A model generated the notes under the pieces. The model was given only the letters and a program-made list of their open reading frames with translations, was not told where the DNA came from and searched no databases. Shown here piece after piece: positions 47,879 through 64,000 of a DNA stretch of 64,000 bases. Origin of the DNA: Anaerolineae bacterium (GTDB lineage Bacteria > Chloroflexota > Anaerolineae > Aggregatilineales > Phototrophicaceae); contig JALHQT010000001.1 of the NCBI GenBank assembly GCA_022841825.1, positions 1,302,001 to 1,366,000 on the forward strand. The letters are read 5' to 3'. The translations under genes and the position numbers were made by a program. The first letter of the stretch is position 1. Each line of letters starts with the position of its first letter.

Positions 47879-50800
47879 TCATTCAACTATTGCGGATACG
47901 ATCACACGCGCCACGCTGCCATCGCGGCGAAATATGCGACTGCTGGTGAGGCTATCAAGCTTAAGCCCATCGAGGGTGTGCACAGAACCATCTTCAAAGT
48001 GCACCGAAATACCCGCATGACTTGATCCCTGAAGCACGACCGGAGTCTGGCAAATGGAGTACGCAAGCGAACCTGCTTGCAGTTCGATTCCGAGCGTCCG
48101 TCCCTGGGCATCGAGATAGGAAAACGTCCCAGGAGCAGAGAGCAGCTCGGCGGAGTCAAGCCAGGCCGCGTCGAATGCGATGATGCCGTCTTCAACGTGG
48201 TAACCAAGCTCCGCCTGCCGTGACAGCGCCACTTCTTTGACATACCCTGTCATGCCCGGTTGTTTCGCTCCCTGTCCTTTGGGCGTGTGCGAATAGGGAT
48301 CGGTGGGAAAAGCGCCGAAGGCATCGGGTGATTTGTTGAAACCCAACCCCTGTCGAATATCCCAGTAGCATTGCCGCAGGGCATCCGCATTGGAGTCGTC
48401 TCTGAATCTCATGGCGGTCTCCTGTGCCGCGAGCAGGAGTTTTGCAACCATGTGCCAGTAGACGCTGCCAAGCCCTTCGTAGGCGAAAAACGTTCCCGAA
48501 CGCCCGGTGAACTCGTTATGGTGGAAGGTGGCTTCAAACAACGCCCTGATCTTCTCGAACTCGACTTCGATCAGTTCAGCATATCGAGGCTGTGTTTTCA
48601 GAGTCTCCAGTGCCCGGCTTACGTCGTTGAAGTTGCGAATGTGTCCACTGAAGTGATACACGCCGTTGACATCGCGCGTCATGATGGAGTGATCATGCGC
48701 CTCCAGCAGCTCTGCAATAAGCGTGATATCCGCGACCTGATCCTGTGTTAAACAGTTCTTTTCCAGGAAACCGGGAAGGCTTCGGTCGGGGTAAAGGATG
48801 TAGCTCTGCTGCTCCGGCTGATAAAGCGCGCTGTTTCGAAGGCTCTGAAGCAAAGCCAACGATTCGTCACTTGACAGCAGACCTGACGAAAGGATGGCGA
48901 CCTGCCCTTCGAGCATCTCATACAAATGACCGACCGAGGCAGTGCTATCGCCGAGATGCAGGATGTTGTACGAGTGGTAGAGGTTATCGGCGCGTTTGTT
49001 TGCGCGCAGGGATTGTTCAATGTACTCCAAAGCCAGATCGAGAAATGCGACGATTGTGCTCACCGATGACTCGGCAACCTCACCAGAAAAACCGTTGTTG
49101 TAGAAGTTCCAACGGTATTCACTCCCCGCTGCACCCAGCGCATCCATGATGTTGCGCCGCTGCGCATCGTTGAAGCCACTTCGCAGGGTCGGCAGGAAAT
49201 GATGTAGGATGCCGGACATGCTTTCATGGAGCTTGCGAAGCTCCGCATTGAGAGGAACAGCATCAACGCCGCTGTTCTCGAACAGGTCCCGGCAAAAGAC
49301 GACATAACGCCGCAGATAGCACAACGTAACGACTGATAGTCCCTTGCCGACGAGGGCATTGTTGGCATCATTCCACTCCGGGCGCTGGGTGTTCATCCAG
49401 ATGCCGCCATCGGGAACAAAGTTCACCAATTTGGCGAGCAGCAACAGCAGCAGCTTTTCGGCTAATGAGACCTGGAGAATTTGCCCATTGGGGGCATACA
49501 CTAATCTCCCATCGGTTCCACGTTCATGCTGCTGCGCTTCAATCCGCTGTTCCAGCGCCCAGTCGAAGTTAATCGTGTTATAGGGATTTTTCAGCAAATC
49601 AGCGTAGGGTTTGATCTGATAGGGAACATGGGCATGGCTGAACATGAGGTGCGTAAGAAGTCCCTGGAGCTTGCCAGGGTGGAACCTGGTACTGATTTCC
49701 ATCAGCCGTTGGAGATAGATGATCTGGTGATCGCTCCAATACCCGATGTTGGACCAGGGATTACCCGGCTCTGGGACTTCCCAATCGATCCCATAGTAAG
49801 TGATGCGGTAGGGGTTGTAACCATCCGCCGTTGTGGCATTCAGGAAGGTAGCGACCATGCTCTCGATGAATTCAGGGTACGAATAGGCAAGCGCCTCCCA
49901 GTTCTGGAAGATGTCGCGCCAGTTTCCTTCATAGTCCAACTTGACGGACCCATCCGGTTTCCTCACGTTTATTGCAAACCGATTCCAGGGGCGGCTGGGA
50001 TCGCCGTGACGCCTGCTGAAGGTCAACGGCAAATACGCGTAGCTCAGTCGAATAAGATCAGCCTCGCCGGATGTCTCTGCCCGTGACTGTAGATCGGACA
50101 CCTGAATTTTGTGCGGCAGCGCGGCGAAGAAGTCTGAATTCGCTTTCAGCAACGCGGGATTGCGCGCAGACACAAAGTCGACAAAGTCGGCTGCTTGAAT
50201 CCAATATTGATCTGCAAAAATGCCGCCGCGCATCACGTTGAACATGACATTTGCAAAGTGATGGGCTGCATCGAGTGGGTTATTGGAAAGCTGTACACCG
50301 TCTGCGCTGGCAACAATCTTCCATAGACTGGACTGGTTGGCTGAAACATCTTCCTCCACATCCTTCGCTAAGGTCAGTGGGTTTCCTTCCAGCCAGCGTA
50401 CCTTCTGGGCGATTGCGGTGCTGTCCTGCCGGACATCCGCCAGCAGATGCCAAGTGAGAGTCTCTTCAGGAGCCAGCTCCAGCCGCGTATGCACAAAGTA
50501 CGCACCACGTCTGCCACGCACATCGGTTTCGGGAGTGATCTCTCCACCTGAACGGAACCGATCAAGCTGCGTCGAAGAGAGCAAATACGATACATCCGCC
50601 AGACCGACCTGTACGACGGTCGTTGCGAGAAGTGACTCGCTTGGCTCGGCAAGATCGGTCAGCGTGGAACTCAGCCCAAATATTGCCAGTCCTGTTCCGA
50701 AATGAAGCTCACTGCGCTTATAAGCGTCAAGAAGGGCGCTGAGTGTATTTTGTGTCCCTGATGCCACATTGGCGGGCAGAATATTCTGGATGCCGTCGAC

Positions 50801-51337
50801 GAATTCGACCTGGCACGGAGAGTCTGCGATGTTTCTCACCCATGTCGTTTTGACAAAACCGAACTGGTCGCTGGTGCGCCACACATACTGGTAAGACAAA
50901 CCCAGCAAGGGATTAATCTCTTCAAAGACCAAGGCTGTTCCGGTCACATTCTTGTAGAGATTGCGTTGGGTGGAGTAGCTGCCTCGGTACAGATTTGAAA
51001 ATGGCTCCCAGAGACTCGTTCGACCAGAACGGGTAACCAACAGGATGCTCTTATTCCCGGTGTTGTCACTGTTTTCCGTAAGTTTGTCTACCGTGTAATA
51101 GGGAAAAAGCGCATTCTCGGCATTACCGCGCCCCGCCGAGAGTCCTCCCGTTGATGAGACAAAGAGCCAGTGATCAGAGCTGCTGACCAGACTGACGAAG
51201 AATGGCTCAATGGCATCAAAATTCTGAATCCGATAAAAAGACTCTCCCATCAACGAAACATAATCACCGCGCACGGGTTCGTCGGGCTGCTCTTGCAGGG
51301 TGTCGCCAATGAAAATCGGTCGCGGATAGTGACTCAT
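47879..51337 (-). CDS. GH94-clan beta-1,3-glucan phosphorylase-like protein (GH149/GH161 type)
   Basis: A 1152-residue soluble protein. An N-terminal beta-sandwich (about 1-330) precedes a helical (alpha/alpha)6 region. In the middle, PEWNDANNALVGKG resembles the catalytic-acid motif DWNDG-N-VG of GH94 cellobiose-type phosphorylases. The size and architecture fit GH149 or GH161, which phosphorolyse beta-1,3-oligoglucans to glucose-1-phosphate. I infer the substrate from the GH16, GH17 and ABC neighbours. It has no signal peptide. The ATG at 51337 (MSHYPRPIFIGD) is the conserved-looking start; upstream codons lack a ribosome site. An uncharacterised GH of the same clan is the main alternative. 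Confidence 0.65.
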   Translation of the reverse strand: MSHYPRPIFIGDTLQEQPDEPVRGDYVSLMGESFYRIQNFDAIEPFFVSLVSSSDHWLFVSSTGGLSAGRGNAENALFPYYTVDKLTENSDNTGNKSILLVTRSGRTSLWEPFSNLYRGSYSTQRNLYKNVTGTALVFEEINPLLGLSYQYVWRTSDQFGFVKTTWVRNIADSPCQVEFVDGIQNILPANVASGTQNTLSALLDAYKRSELHFGTGLAIFGLSSTLTDLAEPSESLLATTVVQVGLADVSYLLSSTQLDRFRSGGEITPETDVRGRRGAYFVHTRLELAPEETLTWHLLADVRQDSTAIAQKVRWLEGNPLTLAKDVEEDVSANQSSLWKIVASADGVQLSNNPLDAAHHFANVMFNVMRGGIFADQYWIQAADFVDFVSARNPALLKANSDFFAALPHKIQVSDLQSRAETSGEADLIRLSYAYLPLTFSRRHGDPSRPWNRFAINVRKPDGSVKLDYEGNWRDIFQNWEALAYSYPEFIESMVATFLNATTADGYNPYRITYYGIDWEVPEPGNPWSNIGYWSDHQIIYLQRLMEISTRFHPGKLQGLLTHLMFSHAHVPYQIKPYADLLKNPYNTINFDWALEQRIEAQQHERGTDGRLVYAPNGQILQVSLAEKLLLLLLAKLVNFVPDGGIWMNTQRPEWNDANNALVGKGLSVVTLCYLRRYVVFCRDLFENSGVDAVPLNAELRKLHESMSGILHHFLPTLRSGFNDAQRRNIMDALGAAGSEYRWNFYNNGFSGEVAESSVSTIVAFLDLALEYIEQSLRANKRADNLYHSYNILHLGDSTASVGHLYEMLEGQVAILSSGLLSSDESLALLQSLRNSALYQPEQQSYILYPDRSLPGFLEKNCLTQDQVADITLIAELLEAHDHSIMTRDVNGVYHFSGHIRNFNDVSRALETLKTQPRYAELIEVEFEKIRALFEATFHHNEFTGRSGTFFAYEGLGSVYWHMVAKLLLAAQETAMRFRDDSNADALRQCYWDIRQGLGFNKSPDAFGAFPTDPYSHTPKGQGAKQPGMTGYVKEVALSRQAELGYHVEDGIIAFDAAWLDSAELLSAPGTFSYLDAQGRTLGIELQAGSLAYSICQTPVVLQGSSHAGISVHFEDGSVHTLDGLKLDSLTSSRIFRRDGSVARVIVSAIVE

Positions 51338-51427
51338 GATCTGGATTCTTTCGCTGTGAATCAGTGAGTTCCTGCTGCCCCTCGAAGAGCAACATGAGTC
51401 TTCGAGGGACACGCAGGGTATTGATCG

Positions 51428-52279
51428 TTACTGTTGGAAGACGCGTACGTAGTCTACGAAGTACTGTGCCGGAAAGACCGTATCCAGCCCGATAGGACCC
51501 GGAAGTGTGCCGCCAACTGCGAGGTTGAGGATGATGAAGAACGGTTGGTCAAAGGGCCATTCGCGTTCGCCAACATCGCTGCGGGTATACGTGCCGTATT
51601 CTTCCCCGTCGTAGAACCAGGTGATCTGGTCTTCATCCCACTCGACCGCATAGGTGTGAAAATCATCGGCAATCTCATAGTCCTGACGGTTCCAGTGGCT
51701 TAGGCTCGTTGCTCCCGCGTAGCCGGGACCATGGATGGTGCCCAGAATCAGGTCTGGTTCTCTGCCGACGTATTCCATGATGTCGATTTCCCCGCAATCG
51801 GGCCACCCGACTTCTTCGAAATTCGACCCCAGCATCCAGAACGCGGGCCACAGACCCCGTCCGGCGGGCACTTTGAGGCGAGCTTCTATGCGTCCGTACT
51901 GGAACTCCTGTAAGCCCTGTGACTTAAGACGCGCCGAGGTGTAGTACGAAGCTTCATATCTTTCCTGTCGCGCTTCGATCACCAGCATGCCATCTTCCAG
52001 CCGGGCGTTATCAGGGCGATCCGTGTAAAACTGTGCCTCTCCATTGCCCCAGCCGTGACCACCTATGTCGTAAGTCCAGTTGGCCTCATCAATCGATTCG
52101 CCATCGAATTCGTCGTGCCAGGCTAATTCCCAACCCTCTGGCACGACAATCGGTGTCGCTTCGGGTTCAGGCGTCGTCTCAGGGGTGGCTTGTTCCTGGG
52201 CAGTAACGGCGCTGATCACACTCAGGCTTACCACCAGAAACGTCAGCGCCAGCACACGGCGGATAGCGTTTGTTCGCAT
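51428..52279 (-). CDS. Secreted GH16 endo-beta-1,3-glucanase (laminarinase-type)
   Basis: A 283-residue exported enzyme. Signal peptide: residues about 1-27, ending AVTAQ-EQ; a short Thr/Pro/Glu linker follows. The GH16 domain begins WELAWHDEFDG and has the catalytic motif GEIDIMEYVG, in which the two Glu of E-x-D-x-x-E are nucleophile and acid/base; the extra residue pattern is that of laminarinases. It ends QYFVDYVRVFQQ. It cuts beta-1,3-glucan outside the membrane. GAGGA lies 7 bases before ATG 52279. The gene follows the permease genes of the importer. Confidence 0.93.
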   Translation of the reverse strand: MRTNAIRRVLALTFLVVSLSVISAVTAQEQATPETTPEPEATPIVVPEGWELAWHDEFDGESIDEANWTYDIGGHGWGNGEAQFYTDRPDNARLEDGMLVIEARQERYEASYYTSARLKSQGLQEFQYGRIEARLKVPAGRGLWPAFWMLGSNFEEVGWPDCGEIDIMEYVGREPDLILGTIHGPGYAGATSLSHWNRQDYEIADDFHTYAVEWDEDQITWFYDGEEYGTYTRSDVGEREWPFDQPFFIILNLAVGGTLPGPIGLDTVFPAQYFVDYVRVFQQ

Positions 52280-52312
52280 CACAATATCCTCATTACACTC
52301 CGGACGAAGTTG

Positions 52313-53161
52313 CTAGCCTTTGACGGAACCAGCGGTCAAACCTGAGACGATGTAACGCTGCAAGAACAAGAACAGGATCACCATCGGCAGTGTCAGCATG
52401 AGCACTGCGGATGCAAGCACGGGCCAGTCGCTGCCATACACACCCTGAAACACGATCAGCCCTCTTGTGATGGGGAAGTAGTCCTCATTCGTCAGGTAGA
52501 TCGTCGGCAGAATGACCTCATTCCAGATACCAATCGCATGCAGAACCACGACTGTTGCAATGGCAGGTCGAATGAGCGGCAGGACGATGGACCACACAAA
52601 ACGGAAGTATCCACAGCCATCCAGCGCCGCAGCCTCATCCAGTTCCTTGGGAACTGTCTTGATGTAGTTCACCAGGATGACAATACCGATCGGGTTCACG
52701 ATAAACAGCAGGATGTAACCAATGGGATTGTTGTACAGCCCCAAACGCAAGATAAGCTGAAATTGTGGTATCAAAGCGGGCGGAAGAAACAGCGCAATCA
52801 CGAAAAGCGTGAGCAGCACCCCCGAATACTTGACATAGCCACGCGCGATTGGGAATGCCACAAAGACGGCGGTGACGACATAAATCGTCGTTGCAGAGGC
52901 AGCATAGAGTGCCGAGTTGAGCATGTACTGCGGGAAGTTTGCCTTTTCCCACGCCTCTGCGAAGTTCTCGAAGTGCAGCTCGGATGCAAGTCTGGTTGCA
53001 TCCCGGTTGAACGATGGGGTCGTTTTGAGTGACGTATTGACCAACATCAGCAGCGGTCCGAGGTAGATGACTGCCAGCAGCACCAGGAACCCATATGACG
53101 CGAACTTGCCCCACGGGAGTGGGCGACCTGTGCTTGAGGCTGCGCTAGTTGCTGCGTTCAT
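52313..53161 (-). CDS. Carbohydrate ABC transporter permease, MalG type
   Basis: A 282-residue permease with six membrane helices. It has the EAA loop KELDEAAALDGCGYFRFVWSIVLPL that contacts the ATPase, and ends with the common sequence FLQRYIVSGLTAGSVKG. It pairs with the MalF-type gene upstream (ATGA overlap). The ATPase is not in the window and is probably the shared MsmK/UgpC-like subunit. Confidence 0.94.
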   Translation of the reverse strand: MNAATSAASSTGRPLPWGKFASYGFLVLLAVIYLGPLLMLVNTSLKTTPSFNRDATRLASELHFENFAEAWEKANFPQYMLNSALYAASATTIYVVTAVFVAFPIARGYVKYSGVLLTLFVIALFLPPALIPQFQLILRLGLYNNPIGYILLFIVNPIGIVILVNYIKTVPKELDEAAALDGCGYFRFVWSIVLPLIRPAIATVVVLHAIGIWNEVILPTIYLTNEDYFPITRGLIVFQGVYGSDWPVLASAVLMLTLPMVILFLFLQRYIVSGLTAGSVKG

Positions 53162-54087
53162 CCCATTAACCTCGCTTCTCTGCGACGCAGAACAGTCTGC
53201 ACCGCCATGCCGATCACAAGCACCAGCAAGAACATGATGATGGATGCCGCCGCGGCGTATCCCTGTCGGAAACTACTGGTCACGCTGCCCGATGTTTGTC
53301 CGAAGCCCGTTGCATAGATCAGGTATCCCAACACCTGCGTTCCATTGCGGTAGCCCAGCAAAATCAGGAATAGCTGCCATGCCTGAAGACTGCCGATGAC
53401 GTTCAGCAGCAGGTTGGTGTTCACGCTGGGAGTCAGCAGCGGCCAGGTGACATTGCGGAAGACCTGCCAACGATCCGCGCCATCAATGCGCGCCGCCTCG
53501 TAATACTCTTCCGAGATGGTCTGGAGACCCGCAAGGAAGATGATCATGGTCGTCCCCATGTTTGCCCAAATCTGGACAACAATGACCCATGCAAACGCCT
53601 CCGTTGGCTGCGCGCCTAGGAATTCCGAACGCGCACCAAAGATTTCTAGGAATTTTGCCAGCGGTCCCCCAAGCGGGTACAGGAAGAGTGACCATATCAG
53701 ACCCTGGATGACCGCACCCAGAATCACGGGCATGAAGTACAGCGTGCGGAAGAAGTTCCTGCCGCGCAACTTCTGATTGAGAATGAGAGCGACCAGAAGA
53801 CCCAGTGCGAACTGAATCGTTGTGACGAAGAAACAGAAGACCAGCGTTCGCCCGACAGCGTTCAGGTTGTCTCTGGCTGCCTGACCCAAGAACAGAAATT
53901 CTTCGTAGTTGTCCAGCCCAACCCAGTTGATGGGTGCTCCAGGCAAGCCGCTGGCATCCGTAAAGGAGTAGACTGAAGTCGCCAATGAAGGACCAAGAGC
54001 AACCACGAAGTAGGCGATAATTCCCGGCAAAAGCAATAAGTAAGGAAGCCAGCGAGCTCGACCCCGACCGAAGTGATACCCAATCAT
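53158..54087 (-). CDS. Carbohydrate ABC transporter permease, MalF type
   Basis: A 309-residue permease. The first helix follows RARWLPYLLLLPGIIAYFVV; the EAA loop is EEYYEAARIDGADRWQVFRNV. It forms the importer channel with the MalG-type protein. GAGGAG lies 5 bases before the ATG at 54087, which is chosen over a longer in-frame start. A strong hairpin precedes the gene at 54115-54148. Confidence 0.94.
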   Translation of the reverse strand: MIGYHFGRGRARWLPYLLLLPGIIAYFVVALGPSLATSVYSFTDASGLPGAPINWVGLDNYEEFLFLGQAARDNLNAVGRTLVFCFFVTTIQFALGLLVALILNQKLRGRNFFRTLYFMPVILGAVIQGLIWSLFLYPLGGPLAKFLEIFGARSEFLGAQPTEAFAWVIVVQIWANMGTTMIIFLAGLQTISEEYYEAARIDGADRWQVFRNVTWPLLTPSVNTNLLLNVIGSLQAWQLFLILLGYRNGTQVLGYLIYATGFGQTSGSVTSSFRQGYAAAASIIMFLLVLVIGMAVQTVLRRREARLMG

Positions 54088-54114
54088 GTCACTCCTCGTT
54101 TCTGACTGAAAATG

Positions 54115-54148
54115 TGTGGGCTTCCCATCAAATCGAGGGAAGCCCACA
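54115..54148 (-). terminator. Hairpin between binding protein and MalF-type permease
   Basis: A perfect 12-base stem (TGTGGGCTTCCC with GGGAAGCCCACA) around a 10-base loop, 19 bases after the binding-protein stop. On the minus strand it is followed by CATTTTC, so partial termination is possible. It would keep the binding protein in excess over the permeases. Confidence 0.65.
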
Positions 54149-54166: not shown

Positions 54167-55462
54167 CTAGCTACCAGCAGCATCCAAACCGGACTGTAGG
54201 TCGGCTTGAACCGTGTCAGCAAGCGCCTGAGGATCATCAAATGTGCCGAACGGCTGGAAGTATGACGCCCAGGGGTTGGCGTATTGACCAACACCACGCG
54301 GCGAAACCCAGTACTGTTCGTACCCGACGCGGAAGTTTTCGAGATACGGTGCAACCTGCTCACCGAGGCGGGTATTCAACTGCGCGGTCGGCTGCGTCGG
54401 AATGAAGCCGACAGCATCGACAAACGCCTGGTAATTCTCAGGTTCCGAGAACTCAGCGAGGTACAGCAAGGCGGCTTCAGCATTCGGCGTATTGGCAGCG
54501 ACAGCCCAGCCCTGGTCATATTTGCCGAACAGGTACTGGTTGTCTTCGGCATTTTCCGAGCCTGGGAAGGGAATGTAGCCCCACTCGAATTCGGGTTCGG
54601 CTGCTTCGATGGCGGGCGCATACCACGTTCCACCAGGGAACATAGCAACTGCACCGGATGCGAAACGACCGGGAGCCGCGTCAGCCGCGATCCCGCTCGC
54701 GCCCGATTCGATCATGTCGCGGGTATAAACCTGCATCCTTGACCACATCTCCAGCGCGCGTTCGTCGTTCCAGGTGATCGTCCCGGTCCACAGTCCCTCG
54801 ACCAATGCTGCCTGGTCGGGATACAGCGCACCCGTCAGACCGTAAGCACCGACGAAAATGGGCCAACCATCTTTGCCACCCGCCGTCATACACGGAATTC
54901 CAGCGGCATTGAAGGTCTCGCAAGCCTGAACCAGTTCGCTCCAGGTCGTCGGCACGGTCACGTTATTGGCGGTGAACAGATCGATGTTGTAGTAAATTCC
55001 GCTGTAGGAAACGCGACCCAGGTTGACGGCGTAAACCTTGCCATCGTACGTGCCAGCATCCGCAATGGTCGCGGCATCGTAGTTGGCGATGAAGGCTTGA
55101 TCCGTCAGATCCATCAGGAGACCGGCATCCGCAAGTTGCTGCCAGTTCGGCGGATCGACGTTATCCATATAGGGTTGAACCGCATTGGCAAAGCCAAACA
55201 TATCGATCACGTCGATGTCGTTGGCGCTCAGGCGGGTCTGAGTTACGGTGCTGAGGTCATTCGCGTTGACCACCGACATGTCAACCACAATATCGGGGTT
55301 CCGTTCCTGAAACGCCTGGTTGAACGCTTCCATGAATTCCACCATGGGGGGATTTTGATGGACGAGCACTCGCAGCGTCGTCGTCTGTGCCGCGACCGGT
55401 TGAATGAGCGCCATGCTCAGGATCAGCAAGACGACCAGTGACAACAAATTTGTCTTTCGCAT
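54167..55462 (-). CDS. Carbohydrate ABC transporter substrate-binding protein (SBP family 1)
   Basis: A 431-residue exported binding protein. Signal peptide: residues 1 to about 25, ending PVAAQ-TTT. The mature part shows the SBP_bac_1 pattern (NPDIVVDMSVVNANDLSTVTQ; GKVYAVNLGRVSYSGIYYN; GAVAMFPGGTWYAPAI). It likely binds beta-glucan oligosaccharides, given the adjacent glucanases. ATG 55462 has GGAG 8 bases upstream; ATG 55468 is too close to that site. It is the first gene of the importer set. Confidence 0.92.
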   Translation of the reverse strand: MRKTNLLSLVVLLILSMALIQPVAAQTTTLRVLVHQNPPMVEFMEAFNQAFQERNPDIVVDMSVVNANDLSTVTQTRLSANDIDVIDMFGFANAVQPYMDNVDPPNWQQLADAGLLMDLTDQAFIANYDAATIADAGTYDGKVYAVNLGRVSYSGIYYNIDLFTANNVTVPTTWSELVQACETFNAAGIPCMTAGGKDGWPIFVGAYGLTGALYPDQAALVEGLWTGTITWNDERALEMWSRMQVYTRDMIESGASGIAADAAPGRFASGAVAMFPGGTWYAPAIEAAEPEFEWGYIPFPGSENAEDNQYLFGKYDQGWAVAANTPNAEAALLYLAEFSEPENYQAFVDAVGFIPTQPTAQLNTRLGEQVAPYLENFRVGYEQYWVSPRGVGQYANPWASYFQPFGTFDDPQALADTVQADLQSGLDAAGS

Positions 55463-55588
55463 TATCATCTCTCCTTGTCCAGCGTGTTTAACTGTATGTG
55501 GACTGATTCGATTGGAAAACCCTGTCGAAAAATGCGTGTGTTCCTTCCTCCTCTATCCTGTCCCGCCATGAGTGGGTTTGTTGATCCA

Positions 55589-55780
55589 TCACGATTGCTT
55601 CCGCGAACGCTGCGCCGCTAACGATCGCGCCTCCGGATTGGGTTGGTAGCCATACTTGCGGATAATCCAGAGTACGCGCTCACGGGTTGCCGGACTTACA
55701 CCGGGTTGTCCGTTTGCAGCCCGCGAAGCGGTTGCGCGTGAGACCCCGGCTAATTTCGCAATCTCCTCTAAAGTGATCAA
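55589..55780 (-). CDS. Stand-alone LacI-type HTH and hinge, no sensor domain
   Basis: A 63-residue protein that is only the DNA-binding part of a LacI/GalR regulator: ITLEEIAKLAGVSRATASRA, a second helix pair, and the hinge-helix sequence NPEARSLAAQ, then a stop. In full-length family members the sugar-binding domain starts a few residues later. No remains of one follow the stop (55480-55588 holds no coding continuation). The start codon is TTG at 55780. A perfect LacI-type operator lies 22 bases upstream. It may act with the neighbouring sensor kinase or as a simple autoregulator. Confidence 0.8.
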   Translation of the reverse strand: MITLEEIAKLAGVSRATASRAANGQPGVSPATRERVLWIIRKYGYQPNPEARSLAAQRSRKQS

Positions 55781-55801
55781 CGTAATTTGCCTTTGGATAC
55801 T

Positions 55802-55819
55802 TTAGGAAGCGCTTCCAAA
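55802..55819 (-). promoter_or_regulatory. LacI-family operator
   Basis: The perfect palindrome GGAAGCGCTTCC (55805-55816), extended by flanking TT and AA, with the central CG typical of LacI-family sites. It lies just upstream of the small HTH gene and downstream of the hybrid kinase gene. The rest of 55820-55970 contains no other clear feature. Confidence 0.7.
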
Positions 55820-55970
55820 CCCATTCGGAGTCTAATCGAGAGCGGTTGCATGGGACATGGAGAAAAGCGAGTCAAATCTGGACAATACATAGCGAGGCGA
55901 TACAGAGGAATGCCCTCGTCAACGAGGGCATAGGTCTGGCATGTGAAGTATCGTGATGAAAGAACGCGGC

Positions 55971-58900
55971 TCAGGAACGGCGAAATGCCTCCGGCGATAT
56001 CCCGGTTTCGCGGTGGAAAATACGACTGAAATACCCGCTGTCCGAAAAACCGACGTTGGACGCAATCTCTGTGATAGATTGTCGGTTTTCCTTCAGGAGG
56101 TGTTTCGCCTGGTTGATGCGGTAGCGCTGAAGATAGGTGATGGGCGTGGTTCCTAACTCCTGGCGAAAGCAAAAAGTCAGATGATCTTCTGTAATGCCAA
56201 CATGCTGGGCAATTTGTCGGCGCGAGAGTGCTTGACTAAAGTTTTGATGGATATACCCCATTGCCATCCGAACCAGAAAGCGTGACTCGTCGCTCAATTT
56301 GCGTTTGTGTTCCAGGGCGGCGCTGATGTGCGAGATGGTCTCCTCGATGCTGAACAATCCTTTGCCCAAAACAACAGCGACGCCCTCAGTCAGTCGTCCC
56401 ATGTCAGTTTCGGTCAATGCCTTTCCGGTAACGACAATAACGGGGATATTTCGAACGCTTTCCAGGGTTCGCATTTCCGCCAAAACCTCAAAGCCATCCA
56501 TCTCCGGCATATGCAAATCCAGCACGACAAGATCGACAATCTCCCTGTGGAGAATTTCCAGCGCTTCCTTGCCGCTGCGCGCCTTCACTACGCGGTTGTG
56601 TGAGGAATGAGACTGAACCATCCGAGCATGCATTTCCAGAGTCCCCGGTTCATCGTCCACCACGAGGATTGTCCGGGTCACATGGTGTGCGTCCGGCAGC
56701 AGCCAGTGTTGATCGAGTGCTTTAGTCAACTCGGAGATTTCGATTGGCTTGGTGAGATAATCCAGTTCCAGTAAGGCTCCGTCGATTTGCGAAGTCGAAT
56801 AGAAGAACACGGGAACTCCCGCCAGCAGCTCGCTGCGTTTGATTTCCTTGAGAGCATCCCAGCCGAGAGCGGTATCCGTACTGACATCCAACACAATCGC
56901 ATCTGGACGCCAGTTGTCAATTTGCCCTCGCCATTCAAACCCTCGTTCGATTACGATGACACCCGCCTTGAATCCACGCCCCTGTAAATGCTCAAAGAGC
57001 CGTTGACTCGTGTTCGGATTGTTGGTTAACACGGCTACGCTTTGCTGCGTTGACGGGTGTATCTCCACGCTGCGAGCCTGTTCGAGGGGTGGCTCAACCG
57101 TTGCAAGCCTAAAGGAAAAGGACGACCCTTCCCCCTCTTCACCAGTCGAGTACACAGAGATGGTGCCGCCGTGCAGTTCTACGAGCCGCTTACTGATCGC
57201 TAATCCAAGCCCTAAACCGCCATAACCCTGAGCAACGGTTCGATCAGATTGCCGGAATTCGTCAAAGATTACCCGCTGTTCTTCGAGAGCGATGCCCAGC
57301 CCCGTATCCTGCACCAATACCCTCACGAAATCGCCATCGGGTTCGAGGCGCAGGCTTACGGTACCGCGTGAGGTGAACTTGATCGCATTGTTGATCAGAT
57401 TGAGCGCAACCTGTCGTAGACGAGTCTGGTCACCCCACACCCAGATACCTGATTCTGGCAAATTGGCTTTCCACTCCAACCCTTTATCGGCTGCCAGTTG
57501 GCTGCCACTCTCAGCGACAATGCGTAAGGCTTGTGCAAGATCAACATATTCGTTGTTCAGGCGAAGCTGTCCGGCATCGCTGGTAGCAAGGTCCAGCACA
57601 TCGCCAATCAGCCCGCCCAGGTGTTGGGAATAGGTGTGTATTCGATCCACGTCTTTTCGGACGGATTCAGGCAGCGGCGAAACGCCCTCATCGCTGTCGC
57701 GCAGGAGTATGCCACTTAAACCGACAATCAAGTTGAGAGGCGTCCTCAGTTCATGGCTGATGGTGGAAAGAAACCGACTCTTCATCCGGTTCGCTTCTTC
57801 TGCCAACAGTCGCCCCTCGGTTGCCTCACGATACAGGTGAGCTGTATTGAGCGCACCGCCGACTTGCTGAACAATCGAACCGTATACATCAAAATACTCT
57901 GAGTCGAACACCATGAAACCAATTTGCCCGGATTGGTCAACCAGGGGTATGAGCGTCAGGACGAAGTTATGCCCCTCAGGCAGGAGACCCGAAGGCGGGA
58001 ATTCCTGACTGCGAAAGCGAAATACCTCTTGATCGGGGCGGATGGTATTGCGCATCGTCGTCCACGCGACAGGATCATCACCCTCCGTTTCAAACAAACC
58101 AAGCATGGCGGTGTGGATATTCATGTTGGGTAAATGTGTTGCCAGAATCTGATAAATTTGCATTTTGTCGAGCGTGGTGAGCAGTCTGGCGGTTAACAGA
58201 CTTAAACGGCTTGCCCTCCATCGCTCATCCACAACGTACTGCCGGTGCTGCCGCCGCATGTGGGCACTGATGGTCAGTCTCGCCTCGCTCAGGAGGTCAC
58301 GCGCCAGCGAGACGGATTTGGGAGATCGCGCGGAGGTTTCAGCAAATTCCACACTCATCAGCGAAATCGCATCCTGCCATAGATGCGTATCATCATCGCC
58401 CTCTGCCGTGCGGCGAAGCGTGTCTGCAAGGACTCTCTGGAATTCCGCACTGTCCCCATCCTGAATACTGGCAACGAACGTGTCCACCAGACGCTGGCAC
58501 AGAGCCAACCCTTCATCCTCGGTCAGACTATGCGCCTGAGTCAGGATCGCGGATGCCATCACAGTGACCAGTTCAGAATGCGGATGCTCGCTACTTGAGG
58601 GCTTTACCGAACGAACTGCCCTCGCTCCGCCAATGCATCCACACGACTCACGAATCACGATATGGGCAGTGACCTGGACGAGTTCGGGCAGCGGCGTTTT
58701 TCCTTCAATGGAGTGCAGCAGCAGATCGACCGCTCGATAGCCAATATCAAACAAAGGAACGTGGATGCTGGTCAACCCCGGTTCATGGACACTACCCTCA
58801 AGCCGGTTGTCAAACCCGATGACGGCGACATCCTGCGGGATTCGACGTCCTTCATCCCGAAGCGCCTGCATCGCACCCAATGCCGACTCATCGTTGCTCG

Positions 58901-59543
58901 CCACCACTGCTGAGAACGCCCCACCAGAGTTGATGATTTGCTGCATGGCAGCGTAGCCGCCGTCATAGACATGGCGACCGTATGCCACGAGACGTGGATC
59001 TTGATCCAAATCGTAGATTTCAAGACCCGTTTGGTAGGCACGCAGACGGTCACCGCTGTCCCCGCGCATATCCCCCACTGTACCAGCGATAAAGGCAATC
59101 TGGCGATGACCGTGCTTCACCAGATGCAGCATCGCTTCCAGAATGCCATCCCGGTTATTGACCGCGATGGTCGGTCCCGCTTCTCCTGAACCGACAAACA
59201 GGATTGGATGTCCAGCAGCAAGCAGCCCCTGAACATAATCTGACCGTGCTTGAGAGTGGAGTGGAACAGCAATGATCAGACCATCTGTATTGTACGGACC
59301 AACCGGGACAAATTCGTGATCGGGGGAAAACACAGACCAGGCGGGTCGCAGGGGATCGGCGGGGCTTGCGGAAGGACCCATCCCACAACCCAGGAGCAGA
59401 TTACAACCCAGGCCTTGCGCAGCATGGGAAGCGCCGCGAAAGATGGGCGCAAGGTAGCTGAGATTAGTCGCTGTACGATAAAACTGCCAGCCCGCCAGGA
59501 CACCAATCGTCGGTACTCTCTCGCGGGAGAATGTTGTTTTCAT
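55971..59543 (-). CDS. LacI-sensor hybrid histidine kinase with AraC output
   Basis: A 1190-residue cytoplasmic regulator. Order: LacI/GalR-type periplasmic-binding-like sensor (about 8-310: TIGVLAG ... DVAVIGFDNRLEGSVHEPGL), helical linker, GAF-like domain (about 450-590), HisKA (FLSTISHELRTPLN), HATPase (NLINNAIKFTS; GLGLAISKRLVELHGG), a divergent receiver (VLDVSTDT), a canonical receiver (LVVDDEPG; LVVLDLHMPEMDGF), and an AraC-type HTH (ISRRQIAQ-like first helix, then FSDSGYFSRIFHRETG). Such one-protein two-component regulators control glycan loci in Bacteroidetes, but the LacI-type internal sensor is unusual. It probably activates the glucan operon. ATG 59543 is preferred. Confidence 0.88.
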   Translation of the reverse strand: MKTTFSRERVPTIGVLAGWQFYRTATNLSYLAPIFRGASHAAQGLGCNLLLGCGMGPSASPADPLRPAWSVFSPDHEFVPVGPYNTDGLIIAVPLHSQARSDYVQGLLAAGHPILFVGSGEAGPTIAVNNRDGILEAMLHLVKHGHRQIAFIAGTVGDMRGDSGDRLRAYQTGLEIYDLDQDPRLVAYGRHVYDGGYAAMQQIINSGGAFSAVVASNDESALGAMQALRDEGRRIPQDVAVIGFDNRLEGSVHEPGLTSIHVPLFDIGYRAVDLLLHSIEGKTPLPELVQVTAHIVIRESCGCIGGARAVRSVKPSSSEHPHSELVTVMASAILTQAHSLTEDEGLALCQRLVDTFVASIQDGDSAEFQRVLADTLRRTAEGDDDTHLWQDAISLMSVEFAETSARSPKSVSLARDLLSEARLTISAHMRRQHRQYVVDERWRASRLSLLTARLLTTLDKMQIYQILATHLPNMNIHTAMLGLFETEGDDPVAWTTMRNTIRPDQEVFRFRSQEFPPSGLLPEGHNFVLTLIPLVDQSGQIGFMVFDSEYFDVYGSIVQQVGGALNTAHLYREATEGRLLAEEANRMKSRFLSTISHELRTPLNLIVGLSGILLRDSDEGVSPLPESVRKDVDRIHTYSQHLGGLIGDVLDLATSDAGQLRLNNEYVDLAQALRIVAESGSQLAADKGLEWKANLPESGIWVWGDQTRLRQVALNLINNAIKFTSRGTVSLRLEPDGDFVRVLVQDTGLGIALEEQRVIFDEFRQSDRTVAQGYGGLGLGLAISKRLVELHGGTISVYSTGEEGEGSSFSFRLATVEPPLEQARSVEIHPSTQQSVAVLTNNPNTSQRLFEHLQGRGFKAGVIVIERGFEWRGQIDNWRPDAIVLDVSTDTALGWDALKEIKRSELLAGVPVFFYSTSQIDGALLELDYLTKPIEISELTKALDQHWLLPDAHHVTRTILVVDDEPGTLEMHARMVQSHSSHNRVVKARSGKEALEILHREIVDLVVLDLHMPEMDGFEVLAEMRTLESVRNIPVIVVTGKALTETDMGRLTEGVAVVLGKGLFSIEETISHISAALEHKRKLSDESRFLVRMAMGYIHQNFSQALSRRQIAQHVGITEDHLTFCFRQELGTTPITYLQRYRINQAKHLLKENRQSITEIASNVGFSDSGYFSRIFHRETGISPEAFRRS

Positions 59544-59692
59544 AAAATCCACTCATGCAATAAACCTTTACCGTCAGTGTTTGCTGGCATCCACTCCCTG
59601 CAATATCACCGGACAGATACATTGTAGCGAAGACACCCTCATATAGCCTATAGAATGACCTGACCGACTCGCGAGCTCCGGCTCAGAAAACA

Positions 59693-59895: not shown

Positions 59896-60020
59896 CCCAA
59901 CCCCCTTGAAGGCTCGCTGCTCGCGCCAGCAAGACTCCCGCGAAAGAGTGTAACACAGCTCCGCGAAGTGCTTGCCAGCCCCAGCGATTTCTATCCGGTT
60001 TGAGCGTTGGAGGGATGGAC

Positions 60021-60845
60021 ATGGCACGCATACTTGCACTAACGAACCACAAGGGAGGCGTCGGTAAAAGCACTTCGGCGACGAACGTTGCGCTGGGCTT
60101 GTGCGGCGTTCTGCGGAAGATGGGCGCGGCGAACAACCGCGTACTGCTGATCGATACCGACAGCCAGGGTCACGCGACCCTGGTCACGACCGGACGCAAC
60201 GACTTCGGCGCGGACAACAGCTTGTACACCGTGTTGATGGCGGATCGCGCGCAGGCACCGCAGGTGATGGCGAAGACGATTGTGCAGAGCGCCTGGGATA
60301 ACGACCTGCATGTGCTGCCTGCATCGCCGATGCTGGAGGGTGCTGAGCGCGAGCTGATGGGCGTCGCAGGCGCACCGTATCGCCTCGCCGACCCGCTCTC
60401 GCGCATCGCACTGCACTACGCAGCGGTTGTCATCGACACGCGCCCGTCGTTCTCGTTGATGACCGAGATGGGACTGATCGCCTCAACAGACGCAATCGTG
60501 CCGGTCGAGCCGCGTTACCTGGAAACGGTCGGCTTGATGAGCGTGGTCAACAAGATCGCCGATATCCGCGAAGGCTGGCGGACGCAGAAGCTGCGCATCA
60601 GCGGCATCATCGTGACGAAGATGGACACGCGCGTGCGTGGTCACAACTACCTGCTCGACGAGATCAAGCAGCATCCGACGCTGGGCAAGCTGGTGTGCGG
60701 CGTCATCCCCTCGAACGAAGCCGTGTCCTATGCCCATCGCAACCACCAGAGCATCTTCGCCTACGATCCGCACGCCCCAGCGGGCATCGCCTATCTCAAG
60801 CTGGTGGGCGCGCTGCTCGGGCGCTTGTTCAAGGCAGGTGTGTGA
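60021..60845 (+). CDS. ParA-type partition ATPase
   Basis: A 274-residue ParA/Soj-like ATPase. The deviant Walker A is NHKGGVGKST with its signature lysine, Walker A-prime is VLLIDTDSQGHAT, and Walker B is YAAVVIDTRPSFS. It lacks an N-terminal HTH, so it is the small ParA (type Ib-like or Soj) form. It would move a plasmid-like element together with the ParB encoded next. GGAGGG lies 6 bases before ATG 60021. The stop overlaps the ParB start. Confidence 0.92.
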   Translation: MARILALTNHKGGVGKSTSATNVALGLCGVLRKMGAANNRVLLIDTDSQGHATLVTTGRNDFGADNSLYTVLMADRAQAPQVMAKTIVQSAWDNDLHVLPASPMLEGAERELMGVAGAPYRLADPLSRIALHYAAVVIDTRPSFSLMTEMGLIASTDAIVPVEPRYLETVGLMSVVNKIADIREGWRTQKLRISGIIVTKMDTRVRGHNYLLDEIKQHPTLGKLVCGVIPSNEAVSYAHRNHQSIFAYDPHAPAGIAYLKLVGALLGRLFKAGV

Positions 60846-62044
60846 TGGCGAAGCGCGATAACACCCAGCGCCTCGACGCGCTGCTCGGCTCCATCACCGA
60901 TGAGATGCTGACGTTTGATCCGCAGCAGTTTGTGGACAACAGCCTGCGCGTCGAACGTATCCTGCTGGAGATGGTGCGCCCCGATCCGGTGCAGCCTCGC
61001 CGTGTGCTGCCAGAGAGCATCCACTTCGAGTTCCACAACAATCGCATGACACCGACGCAGTCATTGCGCCAGCTCGTGCAGACGGTGCAGATCGCGGCAC
61101 GACAGCGTGGACGCCCGTTCAACAGCGTGGTCGAACTGCTGCCGAACGGGGATGATGAGCAGGAAGACGTGGCGGACGTAAAGCTCTCTTCGGAGGAGCA
61201 GCTTCTGCGCGATCTCGTGACGCTCGCCATCACGATCCGGGATGATGGGCAGGTCAACCCGCTCACGGTCGTGGATATGTCGCAGGGTGCGACGCGGCTG
61301 TTTCGCATCGAGACGGGCGAGCGGCGCTATTGGGCGACCTGGCTGCTGCGCGACTTCATCCCGGAGTACACAGGCGACGGCATGATCCCGTGCCTCGTCA
61401 TTCCAGCGGCGCAGTCGTCGGTGTTCCGCCAGGCGAAAGAGAACACGGCGCGCAGCGGTCTATCGGCGATTGCGATGGCGCGACAGGCTGCGCTGCTCCT
61501 GCTGACCGTGCATGGTTACGAAATCCCTGCCTACGCCGTGGGCAACGACTTCTACCGCCAAGCGCTGACTCTCGACCTGCGCGGCAAGCGCGAGTACACC
61601 GACACAATCCTAGCAGCGATGGGTGGGGTAGACAAGCGGCGCTTCAGCCAATTCAAGATGTTGATGCGTTTGTCAGATGAAGCACTCGAAATGGCTGACC
61701 GCCATGATATTGACGAGCGCAAGCTTCGCTATGTAGTTCCGCTGCAACAGGAATATCACGCGGAAATCGTCCGGCAGATTATTGATCTCAATTTGACCAG
61801 CAAACAGGTACAAGAACTCTGCGAGGGAGATCCAATGGATGACCACGACAAAGATGATACGCCCGCAGTATCCGCATCTGCCATGAAAGTGGCAAAGATA
61901 ACGCAGCATGTTGCTAGGCTGTCTCCAACAGAAGTTGCTCGCGCATTCCTGGATTTGGAAGGCGATGTTTCGTTGGCACGCGCGCGACTGAAGAGTTTCC
62001 AACGCTTACTGACTGAAGTCGAAGGTTTCTTGGAGCAGCAGTAA
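60845..62044 (+). CDS. ParB-domain protein
   Basis: A 399-residue protein with a ParB/Srx-like nuclease-fold region (residues about 130-200), including LFRIETGERRYWATWLL, the ERRxxA-type motif that binds CTP in ParB. The middle part resembles the HTH region (SGLSAIAMARQAALLLL). The C-terminus is helical. It overlaps parA (TGATG). No parS-like palindrome was recognised. It is longer and more divergent than chromosomal ParB, consistent with a mobile element. Confidence 0.82.
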   Translation: MAKRDNTQRLDALLGSITDEMLTFDPQQFVDNSLRVERILLEMVRPDPVQPRRVLPESIHFEFHNNRMTPTQSLRQLVQTVQIAARQRGRPFNSVVELLPNGDDEQEDVADVKLSSEEQLLRDLVTLAITIRDDGQVNPLTVVDMSQGATRLFRIETGERRYWATWLLRDFIPEYTGDGMIPCLVIPAAQSSVFRQAKENTARSGLSAIAMARQAALLLLTVHGYEIPAYAVGNDFYRQALTLDLRGKREYTDTILAAMGGVDKRRFSQFKMLMRLSDEALEMADRHDIDERKLRYVVPLQQEYHAEIVRQIIDLNLTSKQVQELCEGDPMDDHDKDDTPAVSASAMKVAKITQHVARLSPTEVARAFLDLEGDVSLARARLKSFQRLLTEVEGFLEQQ

Positions 62045-62112
62045 AAGGTCTACCCGGGTGGACGAATTGAGGTTGGCAAGACTATGAACACTGAGCGCGC
62101 ACCGCCGTAAGA

Positions 62113-62210
62113 CAACAAAAGACCCGCTGGTTGGTACTTCGCGGGTCGGCGGAACCGATATGTTGTGACTGTGGTAAGCACAATATATCACGACCCCGAT
62201 CCGCATGCAA
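62113..62210 (-). ncRNA. Candidate short antisense RNA upstream of the primase gene
   Basis: On the minus strand TTGCAT (62210-62205), a 17-base spacer and TATATT (62187-62182) form a good promoter. About 30-60 bases on, a hairpin (GACCCGC with GCGGGTC, 62147-62121) is followed by TTTTGTTG. A transcript of about 60 bases (near 62175 to 62113) would be made, antisense to the leader of the following gene. No open frame fits it. Plus-strand transcription of parAB would read through it. Confidence 0.4.
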
Positions 62211-62287
62211 CTCACTTTCGCCTTATTGTCGCGCCATTTGGCACGACCCCTCTTTGACTTTGCATGTAACGGAAACGGGGACCCATC

Positions 62288-64000
62288 ATGAGCATTAACC
62301 TGGAGCAGATTCGCTCCGCTAATCCGATAGAAGATGTTGTGGCGTTGCGGTTTGCGCTGAAGAAAGCGGGCACGCGGTTCGTGGGCGTCGAGCATGACAG
62401 CCTGGTCATCGTGCCACGCACACAGATGTACTTCTGGAACTCGAAAGACGAACAAGGGGATGTCTTCGACTTCACCGGGCGGCATCTCCTCAATCTGGTC
62501 ACATGGAACCCGCGCGACCCGGCGCACTTTATGGAGGCAGTACGCTATCTTGCGCAGCGCGCGGGTATCATGATTGAGGAAGACGAAAGCTTTAAGCGGT
62601 CGCATACGTGGGGGGAACGCCAGCTTGTACAACGGTTGCACGATGCGTTGCTGAACACGCGCCCGGCACTGGAGTATGTGACGAAAGTGCGCGGTTGGGC
62701 GATGGAGACGGTGCGCGCTACGCGTATCGGCTTCATGCCAGCGGATAAGCGCGCCTTGGTGGCTGATTTGAACCTGCCGGACAAGTGGCGAACAGTAATC
62801 CAGAGGTTCCCGACAGGCATGATCGTCTACACGCATCTCGAAGGTGGGTGTTTGACCTATCTCAGCGGTCGCTCGATTGAGAGCAAGCAGCATTACAACC
62901 CCCCGCGCGAAATCATCGGCGAGCGGCAGCCCTACTACAATCATGCCTATAGCAAAGGCTGCGAGCAGGTCGTCCTTGTCGAAGGTCAGGCGGACGCGAT
63001 CACGTTTGGCGAGTGGGGCATCGCAGCAATCGCGCTCGGCGGTATGAAGGTATCGGATGACCTGCTGCGTTCGCTTAAGGGCTACAAGCGCGTTTTCGTG
63101 ACGCTCGACAACACCGACGACGCCAATGCCAAGAGCCGTGAGATCGCGCTGGCGCTGCGTGGGCAAACGTATTTGCCCAAACTGCCCAGCGGCGTTAAGG
63201 ATGCGAATGATTGGCTGGTCAATGTGCAGGCGACGGCGGATGATGCCGCTGGGCTGCTCAACCGCGCCCAGCACTGGCTCGCAGCGGAGGTATCGCGTGC
63301 GGTATTCCTTGAAGGCTTGGAACGGCAGGACGCGATCCGCGAGCTATTTGGCTACGCGGTCGGGTTGGATGACTTCGCGCTGGCGGAGTTTAAGGGACTT
63401 ATGGCGAAGATCGGCGTCAAGGTGCGGCTGTTCGCGGAGATGCTGGCTGCCGCGCGAAATGGGAAGCACGATGACGAGGATGACGACATGCCTGAAGTGT
63501 TAGACGACGATGTTCCGATCCTCTCGCCAGCCCTCGGCTTCCAGCGCGAGATGGCGCTGGTCACCGTTTCGGTGATGGAACGAACGAAGGGCAAGCGGCT
63601 CAACATCCAGCCGTATCTGGTCACCAGCACACGCGAGATGAGGCGACTGGCGGACGAGCAAATCATCACCATCAACGAGCAGGAAGTCGCGCTCAAGGTG
63701 CTGCCGGAAGGCACCGAGTTCCTGATGCGTTGGCGCTACAGCGACATCCGACGATTTCTCGATGGCGAAGTCTATGCGCCGGGCGAGGTCTTCGCGACGG
63801 TGCATGATCTGCTGACCAAGTACATCGACTTTCGCTCCGAGGTCGAGAGCCGCATCCTGACGTTGTGGACGATTGGCACCTACTTTTATACCATGTTCCC
63901 GGCGTACCCGTACCTGGCGCTGAACGGGCCGAAGAACAGCGGTAAATCGACCGTGATGCGCGTGTTGCAGCCCTTGTGCTTCAACATGGTCAGCACGTCC
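62288..64000 (+). CDS. Toprim primase/helicase-type protein, C-terminus beyond the window
   Basis: An open frame of 571 codons to the window edge. The N-terminus resembles the CHC2 region of DnaG-like primases (MYFWNSKDEQGDVFDFTG), but the zinc cysteines are absent. Residues about 215-290 form a Toprim fold: EQVVLVEGQADAITFGE with the catalytic Glu and VFVTLDNTDDANAK with the acidic pair. An acidic linker (HDDEDDDMPEV) follows, and at the end Walker A GPKNSGKSTVM opens a P-loop ATPase, probably a helicase. It suits replication of a plasmid or integrative element. GGGGA lies 6 bases before the ATG. Confidence 0.8.
   Translation, partial: MSINLEQIRSANPIEDVVALRFALKKAGTRFVGVEHDSLVIVPRTQMYFWNSKDEQGDVFDFTGRHLLNLVTWNPRDPAHFMEAVRYLAQRAGIMIEEDESFKRSHTWGERQLVQRLHDALLNTRPALEYVTKVRGWAMETVRATRIGFMPADKRALVADLNLPDKWRTVIQRFPTGMIVYTHLEGGCLTYLSGRSIESKQHYNPPREIIGERQPYYNHAYSKGCEQVVLVEGQADAITFGEWGIAAIALGGMKVSDDLLRSLKGYKRVFVTLDNTDDANAKSREIALALRGQTYLPKLPSGVKDANDWLVNVQATADDAAGLLNRAQHWLAAEVSRAVFLEGLERQDAIRELFGYAVGLDDFALAEFKGLMAKIGVKVRLFAEMLAAARNGKHDDEDDDMPEVLDDDVPILSPALGFQREMALVTVSVMERTKGKRLNIQPYLVTSTREMRRLADEQIITINEQEVALKVLPEGTEFLMRWRYSDIRRFLDGEVYAPGEVFATVHDLLTKYIDFRSEVESRILTLWTIGTYFYTMFPAYPYLALNGPKNSGKSTVMRVLQPLCFNMVSTS

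Follow-up and report, generated by a model that had tools for sequence, protein, structure and literature searches.

A LacI-type headpiece encoded without its sensor beside a hybrid sensor kinase: a candidate brake on a beta-1,3-glucan operon in Chloroflexota

What can a LacI protein do once its sensor is gone, and how does a genome come to encode one? LacI proteins are textbook repressors whose grip on DNA depends on a sensor and dimerisation core. The question is raised by a 64,000-nucleotide stretch of an Anaerolineae bacterium (contig JALHQT010000001.1, positions 1,302,001 to 1,366,000), called here the window, in which a 63-residue open reading frame (ORF) encodes only the LacI helix-turn-helix (HTH) and hinge helix, the headpiece, next to the gene of a large hybrid sensor kinase. 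An earlier note, made from the sequence alone, had taken the pair for the two products of one split LacI regulator. The analysis presented here shows that the small ORF is a real gene, more than a chance frame, and makes it reasonably likely, on sequence grounds, that its product is an autoregulated brake on a beta-1,3-glucan operon switched on by the kinase. The two genes are the following.

55589..55780, minus strand: headpiece-only LacI protein of 63 aa, TTG start at 55780 (PF00356 match, matches to HP62 structures, AlphaFold2 (AF2) model)
55971..59552, minus strand: soluble hybrid sensor composed of a LacI-type periplasmic-binding-protein-like domain (PBP), a histidine kinase (HK), two receivers (REC) and an AraC-type HTH (Pfam domains, hydropathy, AF2 model)

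The headpiece gene and the kinase beside it

In a Pfam search the 63-aa ORF matched PF00356 (LacI) along the whole 46-position profile (E 1.1e-16). The protein consists of the LacI HTH and the hinge helix, and its stop, a few residues past the hinge and directly after residue 63, leaves no C-terminal PBP-like ligand and dimerisation core. When an alignment of seven orthologs was used as query, the LacI HP62 headpiece entries 1l1m, 1cjg and 2bjc were among the sequence matches. The AF2 model (mean pLDDT 82.6) has the three HTH helices and a fourth, low-confidence helix at residues 49-61; Foldseek grouped it with the heads of LacI, CcpA and PurR, and the HP62 entries 1l1m and 2bjc were found at a TM score of about 0.7. 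The conserved leucine that marks the hinge helix in the LacI/GalR family is present, and A51, R52, L54 and A55 of the hinge were invariant in 17/17 aligned headpiece rows (an alignment that leaves out loci L245 and L246).

Headpiece-only genes were found in at least 19 Chloroflexota genomes, and in all 19 the C-terminus of a kinase is encoded about 0.1-0.4 kb upstream on the same strand; in the window the kinase is encoded by the next gene upstream. A gap of 120 bp lies between the 63-aa ORF of the window and the next gene. Among 154 genomes of the window's order at least seven carry the gene, its own genome included, the other six proteins being 71-90% identical; the other LacI matches listed in that order all lie in open frames of at least 196 aa. 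A scan of a genome collection returned 79 loci with the N-terminal part of the kinase, 15 of which have a headpiece-only ORF downstream (63-110 aa as first read; five of these are the same contigs as loci of the order search). A search of 396 genomes of the class added two more genes, G633 and G716. The carriers, one of which is a record named Ornatilinea apprima (P3M-1; L151), belong to more than one order, and six of them share only the class with the window. These counts of short LacI-HTH frames refer to the matches listed, and there may be weaker ones besides. In G044 and G716 a contig end truncates the kinase. In a further carrier, L198 (6001-9531), the kinase frame is interrupted at several points, as is the solute-binding gene, the headpiece gene being intact; these may be sequencing errors of a metagenome-assembled genome or real breaks.

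The dN/dS ratio (nonsynonymous to synonymous substitutions) of the headpiece gene was 0.043-0.196 (22 unsaturated pairs, 8 rows, 59 codons), a range that does not include six pairs with L198 that were saturated at synonymous sites, and the seven closest genomes share the position of the stop codon. A tblastn search with LacI PBP queries, run on the 1200 nt that follow each of the 19 headpiece-only genes and the LacI gene of L179, gave nothing at E<=0.01; the PBP part of L096, used as a positive control, was recovered. Purifying selection and recurrence in 19 genomes indicate that the small gene is maintained and is not a decaying remnant.

No headpiece-only gene was seen in the other 64 of the 79 related kinase loci, some of which are cut by contig ends. 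They include the close orthologous loci L075/L136 and L076/L138, and those of Levilinea saccharolytica (L148), Longilinea arvoryzae (L153) and Chloroflexus islandicus (L158), where the kinase is present and no LacI-HTH ORF was found in the stretch examined. Other LacI-HTH ORFs were found in four more of the 79 loci. In L180 (4058-5077) a full-length LacI gene (339 aa) occupies the position of the headpiece gene, 282 bp downstream of the kinase and with GGGAGCGCTCCC in front; the LacI of L179 has 248 aa and lies 732 bp downstream of the kinase, that of L173 lies 3.7 kb downstream and is truncated by the end of its contig, and that of L197 (342 aa) is on the other strand from the kinase. Three further short LacI-HTH frames lie close to contig ends: one of 79 aa (G396:C703) stops 29 nt short of the end of a 3.3-kb contig, one of 149 aa (G576:C90) runs towards a contig end about 230 nt off, its 3.6-kb contig giving no kinase match, and one of 181 aa (G811:C658) is 36 nt from a contig start. 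When viral contigs were scanned with the headpiece alignment no relative was found; the same scan of plasmids gave 139 records, all below 60% identity, irrespective of the lengths of those proteins.

Read from GTG 59552 the large ORF encodes 1193 aa, and read from ATG 59543 it encodes 1190; several orthologs begin at the residue matching this ATG, the probable start. Its Pfam domains are Peripla_BP_3, HisKA, HATPase_c, two Response_reg stretches and an AraC HTH, so that the earlier description of a LacI HTH-hinge protein without sugar-binding core beside a PBP-kinase-REC-REC-AraC protein was borne out by the domains and by the stop after residue 63. Along the chain, the PBP (residues about 10-305) is followed by a helical region (326-458), a mixed domain (about 459-553; tentatively GAF-like, judged by secondary structure), HisKA with His600, HATPase, REC1, REC2 with Asp1012 and the AraC HTH. 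No membrane segment was found by hydropathy (highest 19-residue value 1.37), and the PBP was therefore taken as cytosolic. The AF2 model of residues 1-585 (mean pLDDT 86.1, predicted TM score 0.85), in which only a short stretch ahead of the PBP, residues 1-11, is below pLDDT 50, retrieved LacI-family proteins best in a structure search, CelR with cellobiose coming first (5ysz, E 1.2e-19). In an alignment of 25 kinases (that of the window and 24 of the 79 loci) His600, Asp1012 and the two acidic residues of REC2 were invariant (25/25). REC1 has lost its acidic pocket, Lys935 being kept in 25/25 and Asp889 in 20/25 kinases, and is therefore probably a pseudo-receiver. HK, REC and AraC HTH are thus joined in one polypeptide with intact phosphorylation sites, as in hybrid two-component systems (HTCS).

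Promoter elements downstream of the kinase

Between the stop of the kinase and the headpiece gene the window contains three elements.

55856..55889, minus strand: direct-repeat box TGTATTGTCCA-N10-GCTTTTCTCCATG, candidate site of the kinase's AraC domain
55829..55834, minus strand: TAGACT, a candidate -10 located 21 nt beyond the direct repeat
55805..55816: GGAAGCGCTTCC, a perfect palindrome and the putative operator for the headpiece protein

The exact palindrome occurs only once in the genome (5.9 Mb), and the 30-nt repeat core (55856-55885) is matched only once at up to 3 mismatches. Across loci the repeat reads TGAATTGTCCA-N8..10-GCTTTTCTCCATG and lies downstream of the kinase stop. Defined as having at most 5 mismatches of 24, a clear repeat was found in 28 of the 67 loci with at least 300 nt to examine, 14/19 with a headpiece gene and 14/48 without, and in 0/340 shuffles and 0/79 coding stretches. 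As it occurs with and without the headpiece gene, the repeat goes with the kinase and is likely the target of its AraC domain. A TANNNT hexamer follows the repeat by 20 or 21 nt in 28/28 clear-repeat loci (359/2800 shuffles in a window of 16-23 nt; L245 and L246 left out of this analysis).

By its sequence the palindrome looks like a site of the LacI/GalR type: even, with a central CG and near a promoter. According to PMC4052901, even palindromes with a central CG make up most such sites (1173/1303 regulators), and autoregulation holds for 72% of the LacI regulators studied. A palindrome with at most 3 mismatches to GGAAGCGCTTCC, located 60-95 bp from where the best repeat match begins, was present in 16/19 headpiece loci. 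Within the 28 clear-repeat loci it was found in 13/14 with the gene compared with 2/14 without (Fisher p 7e-5; 0.0013 at cut-offs of 2 or 4 mismatches; kinship not corrected), and of the five headpiece loci with weaker repeats L245, L161 and L160 have it, L246 and L169 do not. Two loci with the palindrome and no gene, L136 and L138, nest within a headpiece-bearing clade of the kinase tree and their palindromes are imperfect, consistent with loss of the headpiece gene.

Spacing is also conserved. In 11 of the 13 headpiece loci that have both a clear repeat and a palindrome, 72 or 73 bp separate the start of the repeat from that of the palindrome (90 in L140, 66 in L142). The centre of the palindrome would be near +12 if transcription started 6-7 nt after the -10. 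The promoter therefore looks like a fixed module in which an AraC-type repeat, a -10 and a palindrome over the predicted transcript start succeed one another. Separate candidate sites for activation and repression are what the earlier note's proposal, that both are integrated at the glucan operon, would predict.

Residue 15 of the headpiece, which we take to be the position of LacI Tyr17, varies with the operator. The second half-site base is G in 22/24 half-sites of headpieces with R15 compared with 3/10 of those with L15, for which it is A or T in 7/10 (p 0.028 by rows, kinship not corrected; 17 of the 19 rows, L151 and L246 being excluded as having no operator and the weak L169 site included). 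This covariation suggests that the headpiece protein reads the palindrome. Two full-length LacIs with similar heads have similar palindromes before their own genes, GGGAGCGCTCCC in L096 and GGAAGCGCTTTC in L120.

Two tandem arrangements of such sites were observed. In L140 (6076-6167) about five 18-bp palindrome-like units lie between the candidate -10 and the headpiece gene. In L130 (10011-10506), from the same phylum, 7.9 copies of a 63-bp unit, each with the LacI-like palindrome GGGAGCGCTCTC, form an array at a distance of about 1.3 kb from the head-coding part of a LacI gene.

Origin of the headpiece gene

Fission of one regulator was put to the test with trees and BLAST comparisons. In the PBP tree one branch (support 98/98, 99% of bootstraps) parts the kinase PBPs (22 rows) from the LacI PBPs (36 rows); the LacI rows were chosen by head similarity and from the window's own genome, and nearer LacIs found later were compared by BLAST only. 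By BLAST the PBP of the window's kinase shares 53-80% identity with ten other kinase PBPs and 41-47% with three more, falling to 27-35% for the eight that are most distant, whereas its identity to LacI PBPs, near-head ones included, is at most about 36% over the aligned part. The kinase PBPs at 27-35% are no closer than those of LacI proteins, so that identity separates the nearer kinases only and the tree separates the rest. The PBPs of L075 and L076 are 76% identical to that of the window although their loci have no headpiece gene. The sensor part of the L179 LacI resembles LacI PBPs (best E 4e-9) and not kinase PBPs (best E 0.23); the same is true of the L173 LacI (best E 6e-8 and 1.1, respectively), and a complete kinase PBP is encoded upstream of each.

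Both headpiece trees are weak, being built on 66-67 columns. In the smaller one 17 headpiece rows are separated from 40 others (96/97, 98% of bootstraps), and L173 and L179 are outside the family. In the larger one, to which L245, L246 and further full-length LacIs were added and from which the seven LacIs of the window's own genome were dropped, L173 and L179 are the two rows labelled full-length within the family's starred set of 21 rows (99/95, among the branches listed), and in every bootstrap two changes are required to explain the headpiece-only form. One clean origin of this form, which the first tree supported, thus found no support in the larger one. Truncation may have occurred more than once, or L173 and L179 may be intermediates. 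In the kinase tree the headpiece trait needs six changes, five of them forced by starred branches. Most likely, these comparisons suggest, the headpiece descends from a LacI protein encoded beside the kinase that lost its own sensor, perhaps stepwise or repeatedly; the order of these events is a reconstruction.

The glucan operon and the candidate brake

In the direction of minus-strand transcription the hybrid sensor and the headpiece gene are followed by five further genes: three encode ABC transporter components (one solute-binding protein and two permeases), one a GH16 glucanase and the last a large enzyme.

54167..55468, minus strand: extracellular solute-binding protein of a sugar ABC transporter
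53158..54147, minus strand: ABC permease of the MalF/UgpA type
52313..53161, minus strand: ABC permease of the MalG/UgpE/GlcU type
51428..52282, minus strand: GH16 beta-glucanase
47879..51412, minus strand: beta-1,3-oligosaccharide phosphorylase, best solved relative 6hq6

The large enzyme gave no match at E<=0.001 in a Pfam search; we assume that it belongs to family GH149. A solved bacterial beta-1,3-oligosaccharide phosphorylase, 6hq6, matches it with 1110.6 bits over residues 42-1174, and on this basis the gene set probably serves the import and phosphorolysis of beta-1,3-glucan pieces. The headpiece gene would be the first gene of this predicted operon. Beside the kinase, on the other strand (60000-64000 of the window), ORFs resembling ParA, a ParB-like protein and a DnaG-like primase, named by reading their translations, perhaps belong to an integrated element.

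In the scheme we favour, the binding of the headpiece to DNA, its repressor role, its pairing there, the ligand and phosphotransfer are predictions. The LacI-type PBP of the kinase would sense an imported beta-glucan oligosaccharide; on ligand binding the kinase would phosphorylate its own REC2, and its AraC domain, sitting on the direct repeat ahead of the -10, would activate transcription. As the first product of the operon transcript, the headpiece would bind the palindrome just downstream of the promoter, over the start region, and throttle expression. As it has no sensor it would not be directly inducible; two headpieces would pair only on DNA, through their hinge helices, and the weight of the brake would be set by the level of the protein and by this weak DNA-assisted pairing.

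Several observations weigh against this scheme. The 63-aa protein has no dimerisation domain, and in PMC4805274 dimer formation is called essential for nonspecific binding, the form that binds DNA about as well as whole LacI being a disulfide-linked dimer of residues 1-62. Dimerisation is consequently the weak point of the proposed brake; tandem units as in L140 may be one way round it. A good palindrome was not found at the expected place in three of the 19 headpiece loci (L151, L246, and only a weak one in L169), and L194 has a symmetric one, GAGAGCGCTCTC, near 9400 and at exactly 72 bp, with no headpiece gene following. In a kinship-aware test of independent pairs (n=5), gene and palindrome agreed in 2.8, disagreed in 0 and showed no difference in 2.2, numbers with which significance is out of reach (62 rows; L198, L119, L245, L246 and kinase loci with less than 600 nt downstream left out). 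A clear repeat is missing from 34/48 kinase loci without the headpiece gene, from 5/19 with it, and from many of the more distant kinases. Finally, the transcript start is a predicted position.

Alternatively, the headpiece may be an accessory, not a repressor, which contends with other LacI proteins for the palindrome or aids the AraC domain by bending DNA. The strong binder in LacI being the linked dimer, the tandem units of L140, which suit coating or bending, and the palindrome of L194 would all fit such a role; the palindrome, however, lies downstream of the candidate -10, the usual place of a repressor, and is imperfect where the gene was lost (L136, L138), and we consider an accessory function unlikely. 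We think it a little less probable still that a split LacI works in trans, the headpiece docking on the PBP of the kinase so that one ligand event releases the repressor and fires the AraC-type activator at the same promoter. Such docking would stand in for the dimerisation domain that the headpiece lacks, the PBP comes at the very start of the kinase after a short low-confidence stretch, and the two genes are adjacent in 19/19 cases, but the close kinases without a headpiece gene (L075, L076) have equally similar PBPs.

The break between hinge and core, seen in both proteins, is what had led to the proposal that one LacI regulator underwent fission and its sensor half was captured by the kinase. 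This reading did not survive the trees and the BLAST comparisons of PBPs: the 98/98 branch, the low identity of the window's kinase PBP to those of LacI proteins, the LacI-type sensor parts of L173 and L179 below complete kinase PBPs, and the 64/79 kinase loci in which no such neighbour was seen, contig ends notwithstanding, leave it very improbable. That the gene is a functionless truncated LacI remnant is scarcely credible. It has a TTG start in the window's genome and is missing from the two close orthologous loci, yet its low dN/dS, its stop at one position in the seven closest genomes and its carriers outside the window's order all speak for function. On this point, and on the recurrence of the pairing elsewhere, both of which the earlier note had named as ways in which it could fail, the survey came out in its favour.

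How does the proposed autoregulated brake compare with known systems? The nearest LacI/GalR repressors by sequence or fold are CcpA, Cra, CelR and the LacI HP62 headpiece structures. The 63-aa protein shares with these repressors the HTH fold, the hinge helix with its invariant leucine and a CG-centred palindrome near its own gene, but it has none of the sugar-binding and dimerisation core; and HP62 is a fragment of LacI cut in the laboratory, whereas the 63-aa protein is a natural gene product. The HTCS of Bacteroides, as described in PMC11253607, likewise join HK, REC and AraC HTH in a single polypeptide encoded next to a glycan operon. Their sensor is membrane-bound, whereas the window's kinase has no membrane segment and a cytosolic LacI-type PBP, and the window's system adds a second, degenerate REC and the companion headpiece gene. 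XylR-type AraC regulators couple a LacI-type sensor to an AraC-type HTH as the kinase does, with no kinase between the two, whereas the window's protein has HisKA, HATPase and two REC there and a separate headpiece protein besides. In a literature search, most subscription journals being outside its reach, no title among those listed dealt with stand-alone LacI headpiece genes or with this type of kinase.

A headpiece kept alone by selection is a natural test of whether hinge helices alone make a useful regulator. It also suggests a route by which a one-component repressor may hand sensing over to a neighbouring signalling kinase, and the conserved promoter elements make the idea of a brake and an activator at one promoter directly testable.

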